A DNA stretch of 64,000 bases, taken from positions 2,046,001 to 2,110,000 of the forward strand of contig NZ_CP053836.1 in assembly GCF_013201825.1 (NCBI RefSeq). Reading direction: 5' to 3'. Position 1 is the first letter of the stretch. Every line of letters begins with the position of its first letter. This document shows positions 36,385-46,419 of the stretch, in pieces. The notes under the pieces are model-generated. The model saw only the letters and a list, made by a program, of their open reading frames with translations. It was not told the DNA's origin and ran no database searches. The translations under genes and the position numbers were made by a program. Source of the DNA: Halarcobacter ebronensis (lineage in GTDB: Bacteria; Campylobacterota; Campylobacteria; Campylobacterales; Arcobacteraceae).

Positions 36385-37104
36385 CTAAAATGATTTTAAA
36401 AAAGCTTTAAATCTGTATTTTAAAAGCTTTGTAAATTTAAATATTTCATCTGGTTTACTTAAACCATCTGCATCAACTCTGTAGTTTATCCCCTTTATCC
36501 CAGAAAAATCTTTGTGAATTGCATTTCCTATTCTAAAAGAGTATTTATATATTTCATGGGTTCTTTTTGCAATCTCTTCATTATATTTTCCAAAAGGGTA
36601 AACAAAGGTTTCAACACAAATGTTTAACTTCTCTTCTAATATTTTCTTTGACAAAACTAACTCTTCATCTAAATTTATGCTCTCTTCTAATAAATTTGTA
36701 TGAGAATGGGAATGGGAAACAATTTGAACCAAACCACTGTTAATCATCTCTTTCATCTCACTAAAAGTGCAAAAAGTTCCTTTTTCATAGTTTTTAAACT
36801 CATCATTATGCTCAAAGCTCATTCTAAGATTTTTATCATTTTGAGATGAATCCAAAATATACTTTGTAGGAACTGCCAAAAGTGCTTTTATCTTAAACTC
36901 TTTTAAAATAGGAAAAATCAGATAATAAAAGTCGACATATGCATCATCAAAAACCAAACAAGCATTTTTGCCACTAAGTTTTTCCTCTGTTGGGAAAACT
37001 GTTTTAAAATTTTCACTTATATATTTGATATGCTCTTTTAAAATCTCTAATTCATTGCTACATCTATCACTATTTGCGTGATGATACATCAAATTAATCA
37101 ACAA
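36385..37104 (-). CDS. Polysaccharide deacetylase family protein
   Basis: The 239-residue NodB-like protein has motif 1 CLVFDDAYVDFYY (Asp53-Asp54), motif 2 IVSHSHSHTNL (metal-binding His pair) and motif 3 FVYPFGKYNEE. It has no signal peptide, so it would act in the cytoplasm on an LPS sugar or precursor, unlike secreted chitin or peptidoglycan deacetylases. It overlaps the kinase gene by 11 bp. An N-acetylated core sugar is the probable substrate, by context. Confidence 0.85.
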   Translation of the reverse strand: MLINLMYHHANSDRCSNELEILKEHIKYISENFKTVFPTEEKLSGKNACLVFDDAYVDFYYLIFPILKEFKIKALLAVPTKYILDSSQNDKNLRMSFEHNDEFKNYEKGTFCTFSEMKEMINSGLVQIVSHSHSHTNLLEESINLDEELVLSKKILEEKLNICVETFVYPFGKYNEEIAKRTHEIYKYSFRIGNAIHKDFSGIKGINYRVDADGLSKPDEIFKFTKLLKYRFKAFLKSF

Positions 37105-37840
37105 CTTCTATTCCTCTTAATCTCTTTTTCATATTGATTCTATCTTTATGTTTTTGGGAAAATCTAATTGCCAAATCAATACACTTCTCTTCATCTTCAT
37201 TCATAAGTTTTGCATACTCTTGTGCGATTATCTTCATATCTTCATTTTTTGCCCATAGTTTTGAAAAGTTTTTTAATCTTTTTTCTAGAGATAATGGCAT
37301 AAACTTCATTCTGTTTATATCAACTATTTTAAACTCATAACCATTTTCTAAAACTTTTACAAGAATATTTCCAGGAGAAAAATCTTTATGGAAAATACCT
37401 CTATCATGAAGTTTGAAACTAAAATTTGCAAAAGCTTTAAAAATCTCCTCTTTATTTTCAAAATCTGGTTTTATAAGAGGTTCTCTAATTGTAAAGTCAT
37501 AATCAAATCTTTGACTTATAAAATAGCTTTGTTCAATCAAACCATAAGAGAAATACTCAATATATGAGACTGGTTTTGGTGTAAAATCACCAATTATTAT
37601 AGAGTTATCATAAGACTTTTTTGCCTTTGAACTTCTAAAGTATGAATAGATAAGTCTATTTAAAAGATTTGGTTTTTTAAAAGATTTTACAACTAACTCT
37701 TCTTGCTCAAAATTAAATATTTTAAGCTCATTTCTAGCTTTGTGAATGGTTTGTTGGTTCTCACTAAAAATATTTTTAATATTTAAAGTAAACTCTTTAA
37801 ACTTCTCACAACCAATATTTATAATATATCTATAACTCAT
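37094..37840 (-). CDS. LPS core kinase, WaaP/Kdo-kinase family
   Basis: The 248-residue protein-kinase-fold enzyme has the nucleotide-binding Lys52 (ELVVKSFK). The catalytic loop is HKDFSPGNILV, with His151, Asp153 and Asn158. The metal-binding DINR is at 174-177, equivalent to DFG. These are the landmarks of WaaP/KdkA enzymes that phosphorylate heptose or Kdo in the inner core. It heads the operon leading to waaF and is divergent from a plus-strand GT4 gene 80 bp away. Confidence 0.87.
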   Translation of the reverse strand: MSYRYIINIGCEKFKEFTLNIKNIFSENQQTIHKARNELKIFNFEQEELVVKSFKKPNLLNRLIYSYFRSSKAKKSYDNSIIIGDFTPKPVSYIEYFSYGLIEQSYFISQRFDYDFTIREPLIKPDFENKEEIFKAFANFSFKLHDRGIFHKDFSPGNILVKVLENGYEFKIVDINRMKFMPLSLEKRLKNFSKLWAKNEDMKIIAQEYAKLMNEDEEKCIDLAIRFSQKHKDRINMKKRLRGIEVVD

Positions 37841-37920
37841 CTAACTCACTTCTTACAATAAAATAATAAACTTTTTGATAAAATATTAAACATATATTAT
37901 AACAAAAGGTGTCTTATTCC

Positions 37921-38985
37921 TTGGATAAAAAAATATTAGAAATATGTTTGTCTCCAGATTTAGGTGGACTTGAACTTTATATGAAAGATTTGACCATTGA
38001 ATTAAAGGCAATGGCCGTTATAGGAAAAAATTCTAGACTTGATTCTTATTTTGATAAAAATAAAATCTCATACTTAAAACTAAAAAAAAGAGCCTTTTTA
38101 AACTTGGCAAAAATAATAGATAAAAATGAGATAGATATTATTCATCTTCATTGGACTAAAGATTTGCCTATTGCCGTTTTGGCAAAACTTTTTTCTAAAA
38201 GGAAACCAAAAATAATTCAAACTAGACATATGCATATGACAAGGTTTAAAGATGATTTTTATCATAAATTTTTATATAAAAACCTTGATGCCATAATTGC
38301 TGTAACAAAACTTGTAAAAAAACAGCTTGAAGAGTTTATTCCCCTTGAAGTTAGACCGAAAATATTTGAAAGTTATATTGGTGCAAAAGATTTTCAAGAG
38401 ATAAGCCAAGAGAAAAAAAATGAGCTAAAAGAAAAATATAATATAAAAGATGAATTTCTAGTCTCAATTGTAGGAAGAATAGAGATACCAAAGGGGCAAC
38501 ATTTAGTTTTAGAAGCAGTAAAAAACCTAAGAGAAAAAGGTATAAATGCAAAAACTCTTGTTATAGGTCATACTATGGATGAAAACTATTTAGAAAAGCT
38601 TAAAAATATATACAAAGAGGATATTTTTACTGGTTTTGTAAATAATGCCTCTGAATTAATGCAGATTTCTAATTGTTTAGTTTTAGCTACAAAAAAAGAG
38701 ACTTTTGGTTTAGTTTTAATTGAAGCTATGAAATGTGGAATCTGTGTTTTAGGAAATAATAAAGGAGGACCACTTGAGATAATTGAAGATAATAGAAGTG
38801 GTCTTTTATTTGATGATGAAAAAGAGAATGACCTTTTTGAAAAACTATTATTAATCCAAAAAGATGAAGAACTTAGAAAAACCCTTGCTCAAAATGGAAA
38901 GAATAGAGCAAAAGAGATATTTGATAGTAAAAAACAGTTTGATGAGATAAAAAATATATTAGAAAAATTTCAAAATTTAATCTAA
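37921..38985 (+). CDS. Family 4 glycosyltransferase
   Basis: The GT-B enzyme has about 354 residues, with an N-terminal acceptor domain (ICLSPDLGGLELYMKDL) and a C-terminal donor domain. VSIVGRIEIPKGQHLVLEAV is present, along with the E-x7-E region ETFGLVLIEAMKCG. I place the start at the TTG at 37921, with AAAAGG 11 nt upstream. A GTG at 37909 is possible but overlaps that site. It is the only plus-strand gene of the surface locus, between two minus-strand blocks, and converges on the SGNH gene (9-bp overlap). It probably builds the LPS core or O-chain; the sugar is unknown. Confidence 0.87.
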   Translation: MDKKILEICLSPDLGGLELYMKDLTIELKAMAVIGKNSRLDSYFDKNKISYLKLKKRAFLNLAKIIDKNEIDIIHLHWTKDLPIAVLAKLFSKRKPKIIQTRHMHMTRFKDDFYHKFLYKNLDAIIAVTKLVKKQLEEFIPLEVRPKIFESYIGAKDFQEISQEKKNELKEKYNIKDEFLVSIVGRIEIPKGQHLVLEAVKNLREKGINAKTLVIGHTMDENYLEKLKNIYKEDIFTGFVNNASELMQISNCLVLATKKETFGLVLIEAMKCGICVLGNNKGGPLEIIEDNRSGLLFDDEKENDLFEKLLLIQKDEELRKTLAQNGKNRAKEIFDSKKQFDEIKNILEKFQNLI

Positions 38986-39996
38986 TAAAACTCCAAAATC
39001 TTCCGGTAAATCACTACTCTCTGGTCTAAAAATTCTTTTTAGTATTAAATCACCTACATGTGATTGATAGTGGGAAGGATCTACATAATTTCTATAATTG
39101 AGAGTAATACTATTTTTATAGCTAAAATCATAAATATTTTTATATTTTCTTAAACTCTTTTTCCAATAATCATAACTATCTTTACACCCATTTTCTTCTA
39201 TTACATCATATACATTTTTATATAAAGGAGAGGTAAACATATAAAGCTTAATATTATTTTCTTTACATAATTTAACGATTTTATCTAAAATTTCAAGGCC
39301 TTCTTTTAAAAATTTTGGATTTCTAAATCTTTCACTATTATAATTTGCAACACTTAATTTGATAGGATTATTAACTCTTTTTTCTAACCAAGGTTCCCCT
39401 TTTTCTGTATATTTTTTCATATTATAATACTCTGTATCCCAGCCTCTTGAATTTACTTGTTGAATCATTCCTTCTGAACTTTCTAATATAGTTTTAAATG
39501 ATCTTCTTAATGTTTGAATACTAAAAAGTGAATCCATATAATCTTTTAAATAATAATCTGTATATCTAGTTTTTTCTAATTTTTTATAATTATCTATATT
39601 CTCTGGACTAAATGAAAAAAAATCTAAACCTAATACTATAAAATGTATATTTTTATTTTTTATAAAATATTTTATATTTGTATATTGTGTTGATATTCCA
39701 GATCCCTGCAGTCCAAGATTATATGCTTTACCATTAATATATTTTTCAATATATTTGGGATTAATATGTTCCATTCTAGAAGTACCAATTAATAAAATAT
39801 CAAAATCACTATTTTTAGCTTGATAAAACTTTGTCATCTTTTCACTTATCGTGTGATTTTTAACATCATTAAAACCTTTAATAGGTTTATTATTAAAAAC
39901 TCCATAAGGGTCAACAACAAAATTAAATCCCAATACAAATGCAACAATAAAAGATGAAATAATTAAACTATTATAAATATATTTTTTATTACTCAT
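38977..39996 (-). CDS. SGNH/AlgJ-like acetyltransferase partner protein (pair 1)
   Basis: The 339-residue protein has an N-terminal membrane anchor (about 9-29) followed by VDPYGVF and a periplasmic SGNH-like domain. The nucleophile is Ser73 in LIGTSRMEH, and the Asp/His pair is in DPSHYQSHVG near residue 313. Proteins of this kind (AlgJ/AlgX/DltD-like) accept acyl groups from an MBOAT protein and place them on polysaccharide. Its start is preceded by a GGGGGG ribosome binding site just after the MBOAT stop, so the MBOAT-SGNH pair is one unit. It is related to the SGNH protein at 41453 but is clearly diverged. Confidence 0.8.
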   Translation of the reverse strand: MSNKKYIYNSLIISSFIVAFVLGFNFVVDPYGVFNNKPIKGFNDVKNHTISEKMTKFYQAKNSDFDILLIGTSRMEHINPKYIEKYINGKAYNLGLQGSGISTQYTNIKYFIKNKNIHFIVLGLDFFSFSPENIDNYKKLEKTRYTDYYLKDYMDSLFSIQTLRRSFKTILESSEGMIQQVNSRGWDTEYYNMKKYTEKGEPWLEKRVNNPIKLSVANYNSERFRNPKFLKEGLEILDKIVKLCKENNIKLYMFTSPLYKNVYDVIEENGCKDSYDYWKKSLRKYKNIYDFSYKNSITLNYRNYVDPSHYQSHVGDLILKRIFRPESSDLPEDFGVLLD

Positions 39997-40005
39997 AATA
40001 CCCCC

Positions 40006-41439
40006 CTAAAAATTGAAATACAGAAATACAGATACTCTATGCACTTCAATTACAGCATAAGATAATAAAAAAGATGTCAAAAGACTACTTTTTCTATTTT
40101 TATCAAAATTATTATTATAATAGTACATACTATTATTAAAATATAAGACTAAAATAAATGCAAAAACACTTAACCCTAATGTCTTGTCATTACCATTTAT
40201 TGAGACAAGTAATGAACTAATTTTATATGTATAAAAATTTACATTATCAAGAGAGAACATAGAAGATAATACTTTAACCGCATCATCCCACTCTTTTGCT
40301 CTAAAAAATATCCAGGCTATATTTACAAAGTTGAAGGTTATGAACCATGCTATTACTTTTGGAAGTCTAAACCCTATACTTTGCCAAACTCTATGTATAC
40401 ACAATGCAACTCCATGCAAAAATCCCCAGAATACAAATGTCCACCCTGCTCCATGCCACAATCCACCTATTACAAATGTTGCCATAAGATTTACATAGGT
40501 TCTAAAGTTTCCTTTTCTATTCCCTCCTAATGGAATATAGATATAATCTCTTAGGAATCTTGAAAGTGTTATATGCCATCTTCTCCAGAAGTCTTGTATA
40601 TCTAATGCTTTATATGGGCTATTAAAGTTTATAGGAAGTTTTATATTAAACAACAGTGCTATTCCTATTGCCATATCTGTATATCCACTAAAGTCAAAGT
40701 ACAATTGAAAGGTATAAGACAAAGATGTTGCCCAGGCTTCTACTAGGTTTAATGTTACTGCCCTATCAAATCCATTAGTTGCCCATTCTGCAAAGGTATC
40801 TGCTATTACTACTTTTTTAAAAAGTCCCAATGAAAATATAAAAAGTCCAAGAGCTATATTTCTATAATTTTTAACTAAATTCCATTTAGATGCAAACTGT
40901 GGCATCATCTCTTTATGATGAACTATTGGACCTGCAATTAATTGAGGGAAAAAAGTTACAAACAGTGCATAATTCAAAAAATCATACTCCTTTGTCTCAT
41001 CTCTATAGCTATCAACTAAATATGCTATTTGTTGGAAGGTAAAAAATGAAATAGCCAAAGGAAGAAGTAGATTTAGTGGTTCTACTTGTATATCTGTTAC
41101 AAGGTTTAAATTTAATATAAAAAAATCTGCATATTTAAAGTATCCAAGAAGTGCCAGGTTACAAACTATTCCAAAGGTTAGGATTGTATTTTTAGAAAAA
41201 CCTTTATTAATACCTCTTTTATTATCAAATGCTAAACTATTACCTATTACATAGTTAAAGAGCATACTACTTAAGATTAATGGCAGGTATACTACATTCC
41301 ACCAAGAATAAAAAAACAAGCTTGCAAATACTAAAAACCCTTTTGCTCCTACAGTTAATCTTTTACTATTTAGGTAGAAATATACAAAAAATACTATTGG
41401 CAAAAATACAAATATAAATTCATAGCTATTAAACAACAT
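40006..41439 (-). CDS. MBOAT O-acyltransferase, copy 1 (AlgI/DltB-like)
   Basis: The 477-residue polytopic inner-membrane acyltransferase has conserved MBOAT motifs QDFWRRWHITLSRFLRDYI (His289) and GGLWHGAGWTFVFWGFLHG (His329). It moves acetyl or acyl groups across the membrane to modify a glycan. Residues 1-400 are identical to the second MBOAT at 42613, and the DNA shows no differences by eye. Residues 401-477 are different, although both end FLYFNF. The gene sits between two SGNH genes and pairs with the one downstream (38977). Confidence 0.93.
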   Translation of the reverse strand: MLFNSYEFIFVFLPIVFFVYFYLNSKRLTVGAKGFLVFASLFFYSWWNVVYLPLILSSMLFNYVIGNSLAFDNKRGINKGFSKNTILTFGIVCNLALLGYFKYADFFILNLNLVTDIQVEPLNLLLPLAISFFTFQQIAYLVDSYRDETKEYDFLNYALFVTFFPQLIAGPIVHHKEMMPQFASKWNLVKNYRNIALGLFIFSLGLFKKVVIADTFAEWATNGFDRAVTLNLVEAWATSLSYTFQLYFDFSGYTDMAIGIALLFNIKLPINFNSPYKALDIQDFWRRWHITLSRFLRDYIYIPLGGNRKGNFRTYVNLMATFVIGGLWHGAGWTFVFWGFLHGVALCIHRVWQSIGFRLPKVIAWFITFNFVNIAWIFFRAKEWDDAVKVLSSMFSLDNVNFYTYKISSLLVSINGNDKTLGLSVFAFILVLYFNNSMYYYNNNFDKNRKSSLLTSFLLSYAVIEVHRVSVFLYFNF

Positions 41440-41481
41440 CTACTTCTTCTCTCTACTTTAATAATTTTAAATAACCATTAA
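40240..41481 (-). repeat. 1242-bp direct repeat, copy 1 (MBOAT gene)
   Basis: This segment equals 42883-44124 at an offset of 2643 bp, and I found no mismatch in the lines compared. It covers codons 1-400 of the MBOAT gene, the intergenic gap, and the last codons of the upstream ORF (encoding NGYLKLLK). Bases just outside differ at both ends (40239 T versus 42882 C; 41482 T versus 44125 C). Confidence 0.95.
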
Positions 41482-42604
41482 TTTTAAACTTATACTCTTT
41501 ACTATCTATATACTTTTTCCTATCTAAAAGCAACTTTTTTAAATGTTCATCTATATTTTTTTTTGTTAACACTACTCCCAACTCCTTATCATAAATATCT
41601 CCATAAAGAAAATCTAGAACCAACTGGCCTAAACTATTTCTATAATGACTTCCTTCCCAATAATATTTCATTAATTCCTCTTTTTTAGAAGGTATTTTTT
41701 CAGATGTATATTTGTTATAAATACTAAAATCAACAATATTAAAAGATTTTTTATTATATTTATGAGAAAGCCTATCTACAGTTAATACAACCTTCTTTTT
41801 CCAATTTAAAAGTAAATTGTAATCATGATAATAAGAAAATGCTTCCCATTGTCTAATATGAGAAGGACCAAATATTATTTCCAATTGAATATCCTTTGAA
41901 AATGCAAAATTAAGTAAATCTTCAAAATCAAGGAAAGCATCTCTTTTAGTATCCCCATAATTATTCTGAACAGTGTACTTTTTATAGTAAAAAGCTTCTT
42001 CCTTGATCATTACATTCTTTTGTCCACCATGTTTTAATATATCATTTGCTTTTGAATCATGTTTTAGCTGTCCATTATCTAAATAACTACTTTTTTTATT
42101 TTTAAAATTATCTAAAATAGTAACAAAGCTCTCTCCTGTCATATCAGAAGATATTAAATATTTATATTTATTAAAATCTTTATTAAAATATTCATTAAAA
42201 TCTTTTACTCTAACTTGATTATATGAATTAAACATAATCCAATCAAGAACAAGCAAAACTTTTTTGGGTTGAATTTGATTTACAATGAATTCAAAACTTT
42301 TAGATATTTCATACATTGAAGCACCTGATAATCCAAAATTATAGCCACTGTCTTCAAAATATTTATGTTTTGGATCAAATCCATTTTCGACTCTAGAAGT
42401 TCCCATTACTAAAACTTTTGGTTTAATAATTTTTATATGTTCAATTTTTGATAATCTAATTTTTTTAGCTTGTTTTGTTTTTTCTAAATTAAAAAAATCA
42501 TTCATATATATTTCATAAGGATCTACTAAATAGTTTACAATTACTAAAAAAGGTATAAAAAAAATAAAGAGAAACCATCTTTTTATCCAATCTTTATAAA
42601 GCAC
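41453..42604 (-). CDS. SGNH/AlgJ-like acetyltransferase partner protein (pair 2)
   Basis: The 383-residue protein has an N-terminal membrane anchor (about 10-27) and VDPYEIY. The nucleophile candidate is Ser70 in VMGTSRVENGF, with WEGSHYRNSLG near the end carrying the Asp/His-equivalent region (Glu instead of Asp). It follows MBOAT copy 2 by 8 bp, forming the second acyltransferase pair. Its last residues NGYLKLLK are encoded inside the 1242-bp repeat and match the end of the GT4 protein at 44096. Its true C-terminus may therefore have been replaced when the repeat was inserted. Confidence 0.78.
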   Translation of the reverse strand: MLYKDWIKRWFLFIFFIPFLVIVNYLVDPYEIYMNDFFNLEKTKQAKKIRLSKIEHIKIIKPKVLVMGTSRVENGFDPKHKYFEDSGYNFGLSGASMYEISKSFEFIVNQIQPKKVLLVLDWIMFNSYNQVRVKDFNEYFNKDFNKYKYLISSDMTGESFVTILDNFKNKKSSYLDNGQLKHDSKANDILKHGGQKNVMIKEEAFYYKKYTVQNNYGDTKRDAFLDFEDLLNFAFSKDIQLEIIFGPSHIRQWEAFSYYHDYNLLLNWKKKVVLTVDRLSHKYNKKSFNIVDFSIYNKYTSEKIPSKKEELMKYYWEGSHYRNSLGQLVLDFLYGDIYDKELGVVLTKKNIDEHLKKLLLDRKKYIDSKEYKFKINGYLKLLK

Positions 42605-42612
42605 AAAAATTC

Positions 42613-44082
42613 CTAAAAATTAAAATATAAAAACTCACTCACTTTTGTGAGTTGAAAAACACTATAAATAAATAAAAAGCTACTAAAAATAACTGATTTA
42701 AAACTTATTTTGAATAATAGAAGTTTTACTATTGAATTTTTTGAAAAAAGTATAATTGTAAAGAAGAAAACTAAAAAAATTATTACTCTATTCCCCTCCT
42801 CTGATATACAAAAAACTCTATCATATATAATATTATCTATTTCTAAAACTTTTGTTAAAAACATTAATTTTGGACTTAACACTACATTATCAAGAGAGAA
42901 CATAGAAGATAATACTTTAACCGCATCATCCCACTCTTTTGCTCTAAAAAATATCCAGGCTATATTTACAAAGTTGAAGGTTATGAACCATGCTATTACT
43001 TTTGGAAGTCTAAACCCTATACTTTGCCAAACTCTATGTATACACAATGCAACTCCATGCAAAAATCCCCAGAATACAAATGTCCACCCTGCTCCATGCC
43101 ACAATCCACCTATTACAAATGTTGCCATAAGATTTACATAGGTTCTAAAGTTTCCTTTTCTATTCCCTCCTAATGGAATATAGATATAATCTCTTAGGAA
43201 TCTTGAAAGTGTTATATGCCATCTTCTCCAGAAGTCTTGTATATCTAATGCTTTATATGGGCTATTAAAGTTTATAGGAAGTTTTATATTAAACAACAGT
43301 GCTATTCCTATTGCCATATCTGTATATCCACTAAAGTCAAAGTACAATTGAAAGGTATAAGACAAAGATGTTGCCCAGGCTTCTACTAGGTTTAATGTTA
43401 CTGCCCTATCAAATCCATTAGTTGCCCATTCTGCAAAGGTATCTGCTATTACTACTTTTTTAAAAAGTCCCAATGAAAATATAAAAAGTCCAAGAGCTAT
43501 ATTTCTATAATTTTTAACTAAATTCCATTTAGATGCAAACTGTGGCATCATCTCTTTATGATGAACTATTGGACCTGCAATTAATTGAGGGAAAAAAGTT
43601 ACAAACAGTGCATAATTCAAAAAATCATACTCCTTTGTCTCATCTCTATAGCTATCAACTAAATATGCTATTTGTTGGAAGGTAAAAAATGAAATAGCCA
43701 AAGGAAGAAGTAGATTTAGTGGTTCTACTTGTATATCTGTTACAAGGTTTAAATTTAATATAAAAAAATCTGCATATTTAAAGTATCCAAGAAGTGCCAG
43801 GTTACAAACTATTCCAAAGGTTAGGATTGTATTTTTAGAAAAACCTTTATTAATACCTCTTTTATTATCAAATGCTAAACTATTACCTATTACATAGTTA
43901 AAGAGCATACTACTTAAGATTAATGGCAGGTATACTACATTCCACCAAGAATAAAAAAACAAGCTTGCAAATACTAAAAACCCTTTTGCTCCTACAGTTA
44001 ATCTTTTACTATTTAGGTAGAAATATACAAAAAATACTATTGGCAAAAATACAAATATAAATTCATAGCTATTAAACAACAT
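42613..44082 (-). CDS. MBOAT O-acyltransferase, copy 2 (AlgI/DltB-like)
   Basis: The 489-residue membrane acyltransferase is identical to the copy at 40006 for residues 1-400, including His289 and His329. The 89-residue C-terminal part is unlike the other copy except for membrane character and the ending FLYFNF. It is followed by its own SGNH partner (41453). Two pairs with one shared catalytic body and two different tails suggest two O-acylation specificities on the same surface glycan. Part of this segment could also be read in the opposite strand as a long ORF, which is an artefact of AT-rich coding. Confidence 0.93.
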   Translation of the reverse strand: MLFNSYEFIFVFLPIVFFVYFYLNSKRLTVGAKGFLVFASLFFYSWWNVVYLPLILSSMLFNYVIGNSLAFDNKRGINKGFSKNTILTFGIVCNLALLGYFKYADFFILNLNLVTDIQVEPLNLLLPLAISFFTFQQIAYLVDSYRDETKEYDFLNYALFVTFFPQLIAGPIVHHKEMMPQFASKWNLVKNYRNIALGLFIFSLGLFKKVVIADTFAEWATNGFDRAVTLNLVEAWATSLSYTFQLYFDFSGYTDMAIGIALLFNIKLPINFNSPYKALDIQDFWRRWHITLSRFLRDYIYIPLGGNRKGNFRTYVNLMATFVIGGLWHGAGWTFVFWGFLHGVALCIHRVWQSIGFRLPKVIAWFITFNFVNIAWIFFRAKEWDDAVKVLSSMFSLDNVVLSPKLMFLTKVLEIDNIIYDRVFCISEEGNRVIIFLVFFFTIILFSKNSIVKLLLFKISFKSVIFSSFLFIYSVFQLTKVSEFLYFNF

Positions 44083-44124
44083 CTACTTCTTCTCTCTACT
44101 TTAATAATTTTAAATAACCATTAA
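42883..44124 (-). repeat. 1242-bp direct repeat, copy 2 (MBOAT gene)
   Basis: This is the second copy of the repeat at 40240-41481, in the same orientation. Homologous recombination between them would delete 2643 bp, removing one SGNH gene and leaving a single MBOAT gene. The absence of visible differences implies recent duplication or ongoing gene conversion. Confidence 0.95.
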
Positions 44125-45193
44125 CTTCAGAATCAACTGAAAAAAGATGTTTTGCTAAATCTAAATTTTTTTGTCTATATGTATCATTAGATGAGATAAA
44201 AAATACAGCTTTGTATAATTCATCTTTTAGTAACTCAATATCTTTATTTTTAGATAATGCATTTATAAAGCCTAATTTCTTAAATTCTATAAATGTTGTA
44301 TTTTCATAACTTATACAATATAATCCACATGAAAGAGCTTCCGCATAAGAATTACAGAAACCTTCTCCATAACTAGGAAATAAAAAAATATCTGAATTCA
44401 TCAAATATTTAAATATATCTTTTTCAAAACCAATTAAATGTATTGAATCTTTATATTTAAGTTTTTCATATACTTTCTTAAATTCTATTTCGAAACCATT
44501 TTCAAAGGAACCAAGAATAAAAAAATCAAACTCTATATTGTTTTTATATAATATTTCACAAGCTAAAATTGCATCTAATTGCCCTTTACCTTTTATAATT
44601 CTTCCTGTATGAATTATTCTGATTTTCTCATTTCTTTTTCTACTAGATAAAATATTATTAAAATCATAATTTTCAATTTTTATAGAAGGATAAATAACTT
44701 TTACTTCACAATGATTGTTTAAAGGAACAATTTTTTTTACATTTTCTTTTAAGTGTTCACTAATTGCAACATGATAATTAACATTTGAATATAAAAGCTT
44801 ATGAATAAAATCCCTTTTAGATGTAAGTTTTGTTGTAGCATGCCTAACTATAAAATTAATATTTAATCCCAAAAAAGCAAAATACAAAGATTTTATTTCA
44901 CTTGCGCCAAAAAATATTACATTTTTAATATTCTTACTTTTAACTATTTTTCTAATTAAAAATATTAATTTTATACTTAAGTTTGAACTAAAAGAAATAC
45001 TAAATTTATTATTTAATGAGTTATTTAGATATTTATCTAAATTTGAATCTATAAAACTACTCTTTCGTGTTAAAAAAAATATATTAACATAACTTTCAAG
45101 CTTAGAAGCGAGTTTAAGGGATGAAATTTCCATGCCTCCTCTATTTGGAGATAAACATATTATTAATGTATTATTTTTCATATTAATATTCAT
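44096..45193 (-). CDS. Family 4 glycosyltransferase
   Basis: The 365-residue GT-B protein has the N-terminal CLSPNRGGMEISSLKL acceptor-domain motif and IHTGRIIKGKGQLDAI at the domain junction. The donor region is FLFPSYGEGFCNSYAEALSCG (E-x7-E type). A second ATG at codon 5 is an alternative start; neither has a strong ribosome binding site. Its last eight residues (NGYLKLLK) lie within the MBOAT repeat. It sits between the O-antigen ligase and the acyltransferase pairs and so probably builds the outer core or O-chain. Confidence 0.87.
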   Translation of the reverse strand: MNINMKNNTLIICLSPNRGGMEISSLKLASKLESYVNIFFLTRKSSFIDSNLDKYLNNSLNNKFSISFSSNLSIKLIFLIRKIVKSKNIKNVIFFGASEIKSLYFAFLGLNINFIVRHATTKLTSKRDFIHKLLYSNVNYHVAISEHLKENVKKIVPLNNHCEVKVIYPSIKIENYDFNNILSSRKRNEKIRIIHTGRIIKGKGQLDAILACEILYKNNIEFDFFILGSFENGFEIEFKKVYEKLKYKDSIHLIGFEKDIFKYLMNSDIFLFPSYGEGFCNSYAEALSCGLYCISYENTTFIEFKKLGFINALSKNKDIELLKDELYKAVFFISSNDTYRQKNLDLAKHLFSVDSEVNGYLKLLK

Positions 45194-45201
45194 TTTTTAT
45201 T

Positions 45202-46419
45202 TTAATTTGAATTAGATATAAACAAAGAAACAATAAATAAGAAAAGAACTAGAGGAAACTGCAAAAATAACATTGGATCACCTACAAAACTAACTAAAAG
45301 AGTTGTTAATCCAATTATACTAATGTCTTTTAATTCTATTTCCTCAATTCTTAATTTATATAATTTATATAGAATAAGAGAAAAAAGGAAAAGAGCAATA
45401 ATCCCTCCTTCAACTGCAATCATTAAATATTGATTATGATAGTGATAAGAAGTGACAAAATTTTTTACATTTTCATTCATAAATTTATAATCATGTTCAG
45501 CTATAACTTTTTTAGCTGCAATTTCATAATCTCCTAAACCATATCCAAAGAATGGTCTATCTTTTAATGCATCATATGTAATTATCCAAAAAGCTGCACG
45601 AATTCCCCAAGAACTATCAAAATTACTATTTAAAATGGCTTTATTTATACTAGCTACAGTAGTATTTACACGGGTTTGAAATGTATTTAAATTTGAATAT
45701 GCAAAATACATAATACTTATTAAGAAAAATAAACTAATAATAATTTTTTTAATATTAGCCCTAAATTTAACTATAACAAATATAATTAAAGTAGTTAAAA
45801 AAGCAACTTGTCCTGTTCTTCCATTGGAAATCATTAGATTTATAAAAGTCATAATAAAAAAAGAAATTATTAAAATTCTAATCTTTAATGATTTATCTTC
45901 AAATGTAATTTTATATAACAGAACTAAAGAAGTAAAGGCTAAAAAAACACTATAATGAATTGATGTCATAAAAGGTGCTATATTTCCCCCAGTATTCTCA
46001 ATTATTCCAAAATTAAAATAAATACTATAAGATAATAGTTCACTAATAAAAACACCCACAAAAAATGCATTTAAAATTACATTAGTCCACTCTTTTTTTA
46101 TTAAAATAACTATTGCTGGTAAAATTATCCAATAAGAGTAGAGCCTTAGATGTCTTATTGTATTAGTTGTATCATCTCCCCAAAAGGAACTTATAATAAT
46201 ATATATGAAATATAAAATTATAAATTTAAAAATATCTTTTTCTTTTAATTTTTCAAAACTATTTTTATAATTTCTTTTTAATATCACTAAAAGGACAAAC
46301 CATATTAAAAAAAAACTAATTGCAGCCCTTGAAAGAGGGAGGGTAAAGGCAAAAACTATCAATGAATAGTAAGAAATCCTTTCTAAAGGTATTGAACTTA
46401 AACTTTTTATATTTAACAT
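45202..46419 (-). CDS. O-antigen ligase family protein (WaaL-like)
   Basis: The 405-residue inner-membrane protein has about ten to twelve hydrophobic segments. A large periplasmic loop (about 245-320) contains PFFGYGLGDYE and SYHYHNQYLMIAVEGG, the Wzy_C/WaaL motifs with conserved His. WaaL joins O-chains or glycans to the lipid A core at the periplasmic face. A polymerase (Wzy) role is possible because the two families share this domain, but no wzx, wzy or wzz genes are visible in the window. The gene is 9 bp upstream of the GT4 gene. Confidence 0.83.
   Translation of the reverse strand: MLNIKSLSSIPLERISYYSLIVFAFTLPLSRAAISFFLIWFVLLVILKRNYKNSFEKLKEKDIFKFIILYFIYIIISSFWGDDTTNTIRHLRLYSYWIILPAIVILIKKEWTNVILNAFFVGVFISELLSYSIYFNFGIIENTGGNIAPFMTSIHYSVFLAFTSLVLLYKITFEDKSLKIRILIISFFIMTFINLMISNGRTGQVAFLTTLIIFVIVKFRANIKKIIISLFFLISIMYFAYSNLNTFQTRVNTTVASINKAILNSNFDSSWGIRAAFWIITYDALKDRPFFGYGLGDYEIAAKKVIAEHDYKFMNENVKNFVTSYHYHNQYLMIAVEGGIIALFLFSLILYKLYKLRIEEIELKDISIIGLTTLLVSFVGDPMLFLQFPLVLFLFIVSLFISNSN

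Follow-up and report, generated by a model that had tools for sequence, protein, structure and literature searches.

We analysed a window of 64,000 nucleotides from Halarcobacter ebronensis (NZ_CP053836.1, positions 2,046,001 to 2,110,000; coordinates without a contig or locus name count from its first letter), in which two genes for MBOAT proteins stand in tandem, each followed by a gene for an SGNH-like protein. The two MBOAT genes have an identical body and unlike 3΄ ends, and similar tandem pairs recur in related genomes. We consider it fairly probable (roughly 0.7) that in this bacterial group the MBOAT body is homogenised by gene conversion and that the locus offers two slots with exchangeable delivery cassettes. 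The features concerned are as follows.

40240..41481, minus strand: repeat copy 1 (MBOAT1 codons 1–400 plus 42 bp upstream), exact match to copy 2
42883..44124, minus strand: repeat copy 2 (MBOAT2 codons 1–400 plus 42 bp upstream), exact match to copy 1
40006..41439, minus strand: MBOAT1 gene, 477 amino acids (PF03062, E = 1.8e-39)
42613..44082, minus strand: MBOAT2 gene, 489 amino acids (PF03062, E = 2.2e-39; predicted fold nearest to DltB)
40006..40239, minus strand: tail 1, 77 residues plus stop, a membrane arm ending in FLYFNF, "type C" (sequence comparison)
42613..42882, minus strand: tail 2, 89 residues plus stop, ending in FLYFNF, "type A" (sequence and predicted helices)
38977..39996, minus strand: SGNH1, 339 amino acids, type C, putative partner of MBOAT1 (GTSR and DPSH motifs; relative in G102 at 43%)
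41453..42604, minus strand: SGNH2, 383 amino acids, type A, putative partner of MBOAT2 (relatives in six other family genomes; predicted fold with DltD as the best PDB match)
41453..41481, minus strand: end of SGNH2 inside the repeat, coding for NGYLKLLK plus stop (sequence ends compared)
44096..44124, minus strand: end of the GT4 glycosyltransferase inside the repeat, coding for NGYLKLLK plus stop (sequence ends compared)

The first-pass annotation had reported that 40240–41481 equals 42883–44124 at an offset of 2643 bp and had proposed a base-by-base alignment of the copies. This alignment gave zero mismatches, and the repeat is exact and maximal at 1242 bp; the whole genome (G000 in our set), a single contig of 3,170,683 bp with two Pfam MBOAT matches, contains these two copies only. 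The repeat begins 42 bp before each ATG and stops after codon 400. The same annotation had described matching codons 1–400, then 77 or 89 unlike codons with a common FLYFNF end, and we found exactly this. Upstream, the repeat enters two unrelated genes, with the result that the GT4 glycosyltransferase and SGNH2 both end in NGYLKLLK. Since the six relatives of SGNH2 have other C-terminal ends (YRKEVF-like) and a glycosyltransferase relative in G001 (42% identity) ends in EYLELLR, the end of SGNH2 was probably overwritten from that of the glycosyltransferase, with copying from the upstream to the downstream MBOAT gene; this direction is tentative because the G001 protein is the sole comparator for the glycosyltransferase end. 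Within the body, the two copies agree at every four-fold site (140 of 140), as against 46 to 64 of 102 (45–63%) between G000 and four other genomes, and purifying selection alone was accordingly ruled out as the cause of the identity.

We searched 104 genomes of the bacterial family with MBOAT2, taking matches of at least ~57% identity and contig-end fragments for analysis; a second, unlinked MBOAT family at 51–54% identity and weaker matches were left out of the family set. An MBOAT2 match was obtained in 57 of the 104 genomes, and in all seven tandem pairs taken from this search (including G000) the bodies stay near-identical up to an abrupt break towards the 3΄ end. For an order-wide search 398 genomes were drawn, at least 134 of which had a match; regions were taken from among the matches listed, mainly from genomes with two or more of them (G159 and G295, for example, were left out). 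The subsequent comparison within genomes comprised 39 pairs among 115 MBOAT entries, pairs with an open reading frame under 200 amino acids being excluded (fragments in G035, G049, G052 and G069 and part of G029), and its counts describe the sample taken, not all genomes. Same-strand pairs starting within 6 kb numbered 13, and in 12 of them (G000, G017, G023, G027, G029, G037, G045, G107, G126, G323, G391 and G410) body DNA identity was 93.8–100%. Among the other 26 pairs (inverted, distant or on different contigs), it was at least 90% in three: G014 (99.7%, 58.7 kb apart), G024 (96.3%) and G224 (94.0%), the last being alike in tail and downstream protein as well. The tails of the 12 alike pairs are 26–76% identical where measured (G029 is not among these), and the second tail of G045 is cut short, not diverged. 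In 80 loci from mixed phyla with flanks of up to 10 kb, a second MBOAT stretch was present in four, namely L025 (the G323 locus), L040 (the G107 locus), a tandem in L023 and opposite-strand fragments in L068.

The distant copies of G014 (C1:2889888 and C1:2948594), with bodies 99.7% identical and unrelated downstream proteins, suggest homogenisation at a distance too. G552 has two MBOAT proteins of 507 amino acids and equal score, 1.57 Mb apart (C1:8935–10422 and C1:1581639–1583126), perhaps identical copies.

Evidence for conversion comes from G017, G023, G027 and G029, which carry SGNH types A and B in the same order beside the same GT4 gene. In the SGNH tree, type A forms one clade and type B another across genomes (100/100 each), while in the tree of body DNA (first 1010 nucleotides) the copies pair within the genome (100/100) in G017, G023, G029 and G037, and the rows are identical within G000 and within G027. 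SGNH types are thus shared across genomes while the bodies cluster with their own genome, a pattern that indicates concerted evolution through gene conversion. Between these genomes the bodies are mostly 74–83% alike, with 88% for G027 versus G023. G017 goes with G023 in two flanking genes (88 and 90%) but not in a third (72%); the SGNH types put G027 with G029 (75 and 77%), and the body tree puts G027 with G023 and G029 with G030. As these groupings disagree, body, cassette and flanks have had differing histories. In G323 a tract edge is visible: 61 mismatches all fall in the first 741 of 1150 aligned bases and the next 409 bases are identical, a run whose length was reached in 0 of 20000 random placements. 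In three other comparisons the same region diverged just a little less than the remainder (0.235, 0.170 and 0.320, versus 0.251, 0.219 and 0.393). In addition, the upstream MBOAT gene of G029 (L123:8272–9731, minus strand) is frame-broken with its SGNH gene open, and its body, over the part compared, has ~98.7% identity to the intact downstream copy. In the inverted pair of G143 (L179), whose members lie 5.3 kb apart, near-identical stretches alternate with diverged ones, and conversion may act between inverted copies too. The earlier proposal that the bodies are kept uniform by gene conversion is therefore supported by the tandem identities, the grouping by genome, the four-fold sites and the G323 edge, with exceptions in G308 and L023.

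Those exceptions belong to several observations that weigh against this reading. The bodies of the same-strand tandem pair in G308 are 75.4% identical, and those of the tandem in L023 (5673–7076 and 10001–11455, same strand) are 76.1% alike. G000 by itself is compatible with conversion and with a young duplication alike; its bodies are identical throughout, and no tract edge is visible. G045 duplicates the SGNH gene too, the SGNH proteins of G107 and of G391 are related (bit ratios 0.28 and 0.38), and these three pairs may be younger copies. Furthermore, DNA homology ends where the tails differ, so that selection need not be invoked for conversion to halt at this point. An unlikely alternative, under which continuing conversion is unneeded, is that recent tandem duplications arose independently and that one tail and SGNH gene were then replaced in each. 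G045 (MBOAT 99.9%, SGNH 98.5%) resembles a young joint duplication, the related SGNH proteins of G107 and G391 fit the same course of events, the G000 repeat takes in 42 bp upstream with codons of the neighbouring gene, as a duplication junction would, and diverged bodies are kept in tandem in G308 and L023. Against this alternative stand the four genomes that share SGNH types and order with bodies ~100% alike within and 74–88% between genomes, the sharp edge in G323, and the G029 copy, which has kept 98.7% identity to the adjacent one despite its broken frame. That identical bodies derive from collapsed or copied contigs is extremely improbable: fragmented genomes do break here (in G035 the MBOAT gene is split between contigs; two of these share their first 127 bp, and two other ends are unmatched), but G000 is one contig and the layout occurs in the one-contig genomes G017, G023, G029, G045 and G391. 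Chance or an assembly artefact was rejected as the source of the exact repeat.

Besides gene conversion, the first-pass annotation had considered that recombination between the repeats could act as a switch, deleting 2643 bp and leaving a hybrid pair. A perfect direct repeat of 1242 bp is a good recombination substrate, and G102, in which a lone type C pair stands close to a gene related to the convergent GT4 gene, has the layout that such a deletion would leave; this single comparison between species cannot by itself establish a deletion. However, the deletion would always spare the downstream cassette and be irreversible from within, both pairs are intact in G017, G023 and G027, and G029 has kept both SGNH genes. 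We regard it as quite improbable that some cells of the population lose the segment by crossing over and, with it, one of the two specificities. The hybrid itself has to be given up: because the bodies are identical, loss of tail 2, SGNH2 and one body would yield an ordinary GT4-MBOAT1-SGNH1 arrangement.

We further examined the point at which the repeat stops. Both MBOAT genes match PF03062 at 136 bits (cut-off 27), and H329, within GLWHG, is invariant in 32 MBOAT sequences; the catalytic role of this conserved His is given in PMC12148441. The DltB profile aligns to residues 35–379 only, and the score against the DltB equivalog TIGR04091 of NCBIfam, 162 bits, lies below its cut-off of 375. 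In the predicted structure of MBOAT2 (mean predicted local distance difference test score, pLDDT, 80), whose closest solved fold is DltB, the last core helix spans 384–394 and is followed by helices at 404–411, 430–446, 450–456 and 461–476 and a low-confidence end (pLDDT 77–94 in the extra-helix block, under 50 at 485–489). The prediction thus contains the two additional C-terminal membrane helices of the PatA type (430–446 and 461–476, with 450–456 between them). Mean column conservation in 54 family MBOATs falls from 0.69 at 381–400 to 0.42 and 0.34, then 0.57 and 0.41, and returns to 0.85 over the last nine residues. After M394 the only residues invariant in the 32 sequences are F484, Y486, F487 and F489, all within the terminal motif, which is located as follows in the two genes.

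40009..40026, minus strand: FLYFNF, putative acyl-shuttle motif of MBOAT1 (translation; FXYXXF end in 90/91 MBOATs)
42616..42633, minus strand: FLYFNF, putative acyl-shuttle motif of MBOAT2 (F484, Y486, F487 and F489 invariant in 32 sequences)

For tail and partner statistics, 91 of the 115 MBOAT entries were used (440–530 amino acids, downstream open reading frame of at least 220 amino acids); the one entry without a C-terminal FXYXXF has unknown residues at its end. In PatA, two additional C-terminal helices (in an α15–α17 layout) carry FXYXXF, and its Tyr is auto-acetylated and serves as the donor for PatB (PMC12148441). By analogy, the variable tail would contain a catalytic part, the FXYXXF shuttle tyrosine, and in G000 the repeat stops, according to the predicted model, between a DltB-like engine and a shuttle arm. 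The earlier view of the tail as the recognition part is therefore retained in part: the last helix is associated with the partner (see below), but the tail is more than a recognition part because it carries the FXYXXF shuttle tyrosine on two extra helices. A break in GC content at codon 400 was dropped as proof of foreign cassettes, since GC content is higher in the body than in the tail for 82 of the 91 MBOATs; the mean difference is present too in 71 MBOATs outside the tandem list.

That each MBOAT gene is followed by its own SGNH gene, and that the two SGNH proteins are diverged, had also been noted at first pass; both points were confirmed, by open frames at most 10 bp away with GTSR and DPSH or EGSH motifs and by an identity of ~21% in the multiple alignment. 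The assignment as O-acylation pairs with SGNH-like partners is supported by the MBOAT profile, the invariant residues and the predicted folds, with G68, S70 and H320 of SGNH2 invariant in a set of 24. Against the role of SGNH2 as an SGNH-like acyltransferase partner stand a template modelling (TM) score of only about 0.37 between its predicted fold and DltD and the lack of a match passing the cut-off to any curated profile, Pfam included; GDSL-type lipases or hydrolases reach about 0.6 by target length. For SGNH1, the DUF1574 match in Pfam was below the cut-off, and a PDB sequence search with the SGNH set gave no convincing match. Proteins downstream of the 91 MBOATs, defined by position and not checked one by one for SGNH motifs, have an N-terminal hydrophobic stretch in 91 of 91 cases and fall into 29 groups, 11 of them singletons (single linkage, BLAST bit ratio 0.25). 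Type A proteins have an EGSHYKK-like motif and type B proteins GDSFSNGG...DDTHW-like motifs, the GDSF...DDTHW pattern presumably resembling that of AlgJ/X.

To assess whether the tail might choose the partner, we compared last-helix identities between genomes, noting that these genome pairs are not independent. With bodies at least 90% alike (47 genome pairs), last-helix identity was 76% when the SGNH proteins were related (n = 6) and 39% when they were unrelated (n = 40); in lower bins of body identity the corresponding values were 38 versus 27, 54 versus 29 and 63 versus 35%. A scan of MBOAT windows against the SGNH anchor, with similarity of body and SGNH domain controlled for, peaked at 0.204 at residues 441–482 (0 of 200 permutations), with 0.041 at 401–440 and 0.085–0.101 at 1–40, 41–80 and 241–280. 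From window-based comparison, the two proteins of a pair differ only from about codon 434–444 in G023, G027 and the dispersed pair of G014, which makes the last helix plus motif the smallest naturally varying unit; divergence starts at about codon 373–404 in G107, G126, G323, G410, G037 and G024 (likewise window-based), and at 401 in G000. It is plausible from these comparisons that the last helix picks the SGNH partner, which is modestly supported, and linkage may explain much of the association. Tail and SGNH gene are adjacent on the DNA, which confounds the comparison, and in the half of the genome pairs with the least similar SGNH domains the last helix reached 0.084, versus 0.089 for 1–40 and 0.124 for 241–280; both points weigh against a choice by the tail. 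It is possible, although we doubt it, that the tail is merely fast-evolving and loosely constrained, has no partner role and tracks the SGNH gene by adjacency. The distance of about 10 bp between tail end and SGNH start in most loci, the small partial correlations that fade in the domain-unrelated half, and the AT-richness of tails, as in neighbouring genes of the lipooligosaccharide (LOS) locus, agree with such a loose tail. On the other side, the anchor signal peaks in the last helix rather than at 401–440, related partners go with a last-helix identity raised about 1.4- to 2-fold in every bin, and in the published PatAB model the PatB anchor helix contacts α1 and α17, the latter the last helix of PatA (PMC12148441).

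By analogy with PatA/PatB, each body would load the tyrosine in its own tail with an acyl group taken from acyl-CoA; from the tail the group would pass to the adjacently encoded SGNH protein, which would acylate a sugar. The last helix would dock on the SGNH membrane anchor, and the variable tail would let the same DltB-like engine serve two SGNH enzymes, probably on LOS sugars.

The distribution of the SGNH genes bears on the origin of the cassettes. At E ≤ 1e-20, SGNH2 had matches in 7 of the 104 genomes searched (six from genus g2, besides G000) and SGNH1 in 18, including itself, the best being G102 at 43% and the others at most 33%; for neither was there a match at this cut-off in 15 congeners. 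More distant open reading frames (26–28%) are present in the congeners G006, G014 and G015. The single type C (SGNH1-type) pair of G102, already mentioned, stands beside a WaaL-like gene. Because SGNH relatives are found in other genera and none in congeners at the cut-off, the 3΄ cassette, comprising the last helices with FXYXXF and the SGNH gene, looks horizontally exchanged; the alternative is loss in the congeners. We put forward only tentatively, as a possibility that we do not favour, that the locus generates diversity in O-acylation: the body would be kept homogeneous because it is a landing pad for the capture of cassettes of shuttle arm and SGNH gene and for their exchange between genera, a single membrane engine would thereby serve an open set of glycan acyltransferases, and the last helix alone would set the partner. 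Cassette exchange could be a route to altered surface O-acylation without polyG switches. PMC2147049 reports Arcobacter butzleri to be without polyG switches and its LOS region to be conserved among 12 strains, the latter speaking against fast change within that species.

A close counterpart of these genes is the peptidoglycan O-acetyltransferase PatA/PatB, which likewise consists of an MBOAT protein with the conserved His, two extra helices and a terminal FXYXXF and of a separate membrane-anchored SGNH protein (PMC12148441). However, PatA/PatB acts on peptidoglycan whereas the present genes lie in an LOS locus, and the available part of that source, which models one PatAB pair, describes neither a repeated body nor alternative tails. 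In the D-alanylation of lipoteichoic acid, DltB/DltX/DltD provide the closest solved folds for both predicted models, and the shuttle motif is a separable unit, DltX, a microprotein of its own (PMC12148441). The present MBOAT proteins, by contrast, contain the shuttle arm in their own chain, although genetically it behaves like a module apart, and the TIGR04091 score stays below the cut-off. Alginate O-acetylation by AlgI with AlgJ/AlgX also combines an MBOAT protein with SGNH-like partners, whereas here the members of one MBOAT family are followed by many dissimilar downstream proteins. Concerted evolution by conversion of part of a gene is a general phenomenon, and has in common with the present case paralogue bodies alike within genomes, partners alike between genomes and a mosaic tract; what differs here is that the boundary lies close to where core and shuttle arm of an O-acylating enzyme join. 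In the open-licence PMC literature we found no account of MBOAT bodies kept uniform beside shuttle arms that can be exchanged, of MBOAT gene conversion or of tandem MBOAT-SGNH loci; the components themselves are known. Nine of the 12 alike tandem pairs (G000, G017, G023, G027, G029 by its types, G037, G126, G323 and G410) offer natural matched comparisons, in which one body carries two arms beside unlike downstream proteins. G023, G027 and G014 confine the candidate region for specificity to the last helix with the shuttle motif, and make a partner rule testable by short swaps.

On the minus strand, the order of genes is GT4 glycosyltransferase, MBOAT2, SGNH2, MBOAT1 and SGNH1, followed by a convergent GT4 gene. 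The neighbouring features are as follows.

44096..45193, minus strand: GT4 glycosyltransferase upstream of MBOAT2 (PF00534)
45202..46419, minus strand: O-antigen ligase-like protein, context (PF04932)
37909..38985, plus strand: convergent GT4 glycosyltransferase, syntenic anchor common to G017, G023, G027, G029 and G102 (profile match and synteny)

The surroundings include gmhA, hldE, hldD, heptosyltransferases of the waaF and waaC types, and O-antigen ligase-like, lipid A acyltransferase-like and Kdo/WaaP-kinase-like proteins. Judged from these gene assignments, the neighbourhood is an LOS or lipopolysaccharide core (heptose) locus, and this position hints at a single surface glycan as the possible target of both pairs.

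In G045, a frame of 826 amino acids (L120:4918–7398, minus strand) consists of an MBOAT part truncated before FXYXXF that runs into an SGNH-like part. It may be a natural fusion or a decaying copy, and adjoins an intact pair that is 98–100% alike. In the window, SGNH1 and the convergent GT4 gene have their final 9 bp (38977–38985) in common. The LOS locus also contains polysaccharide deacetylase-like and Kdo-kinase-like genes at 36385–37104 and 37094–37840, and the Kdo-kinase type recurs near the MBOAT cassettes of relatives, for example in G001 and G017.

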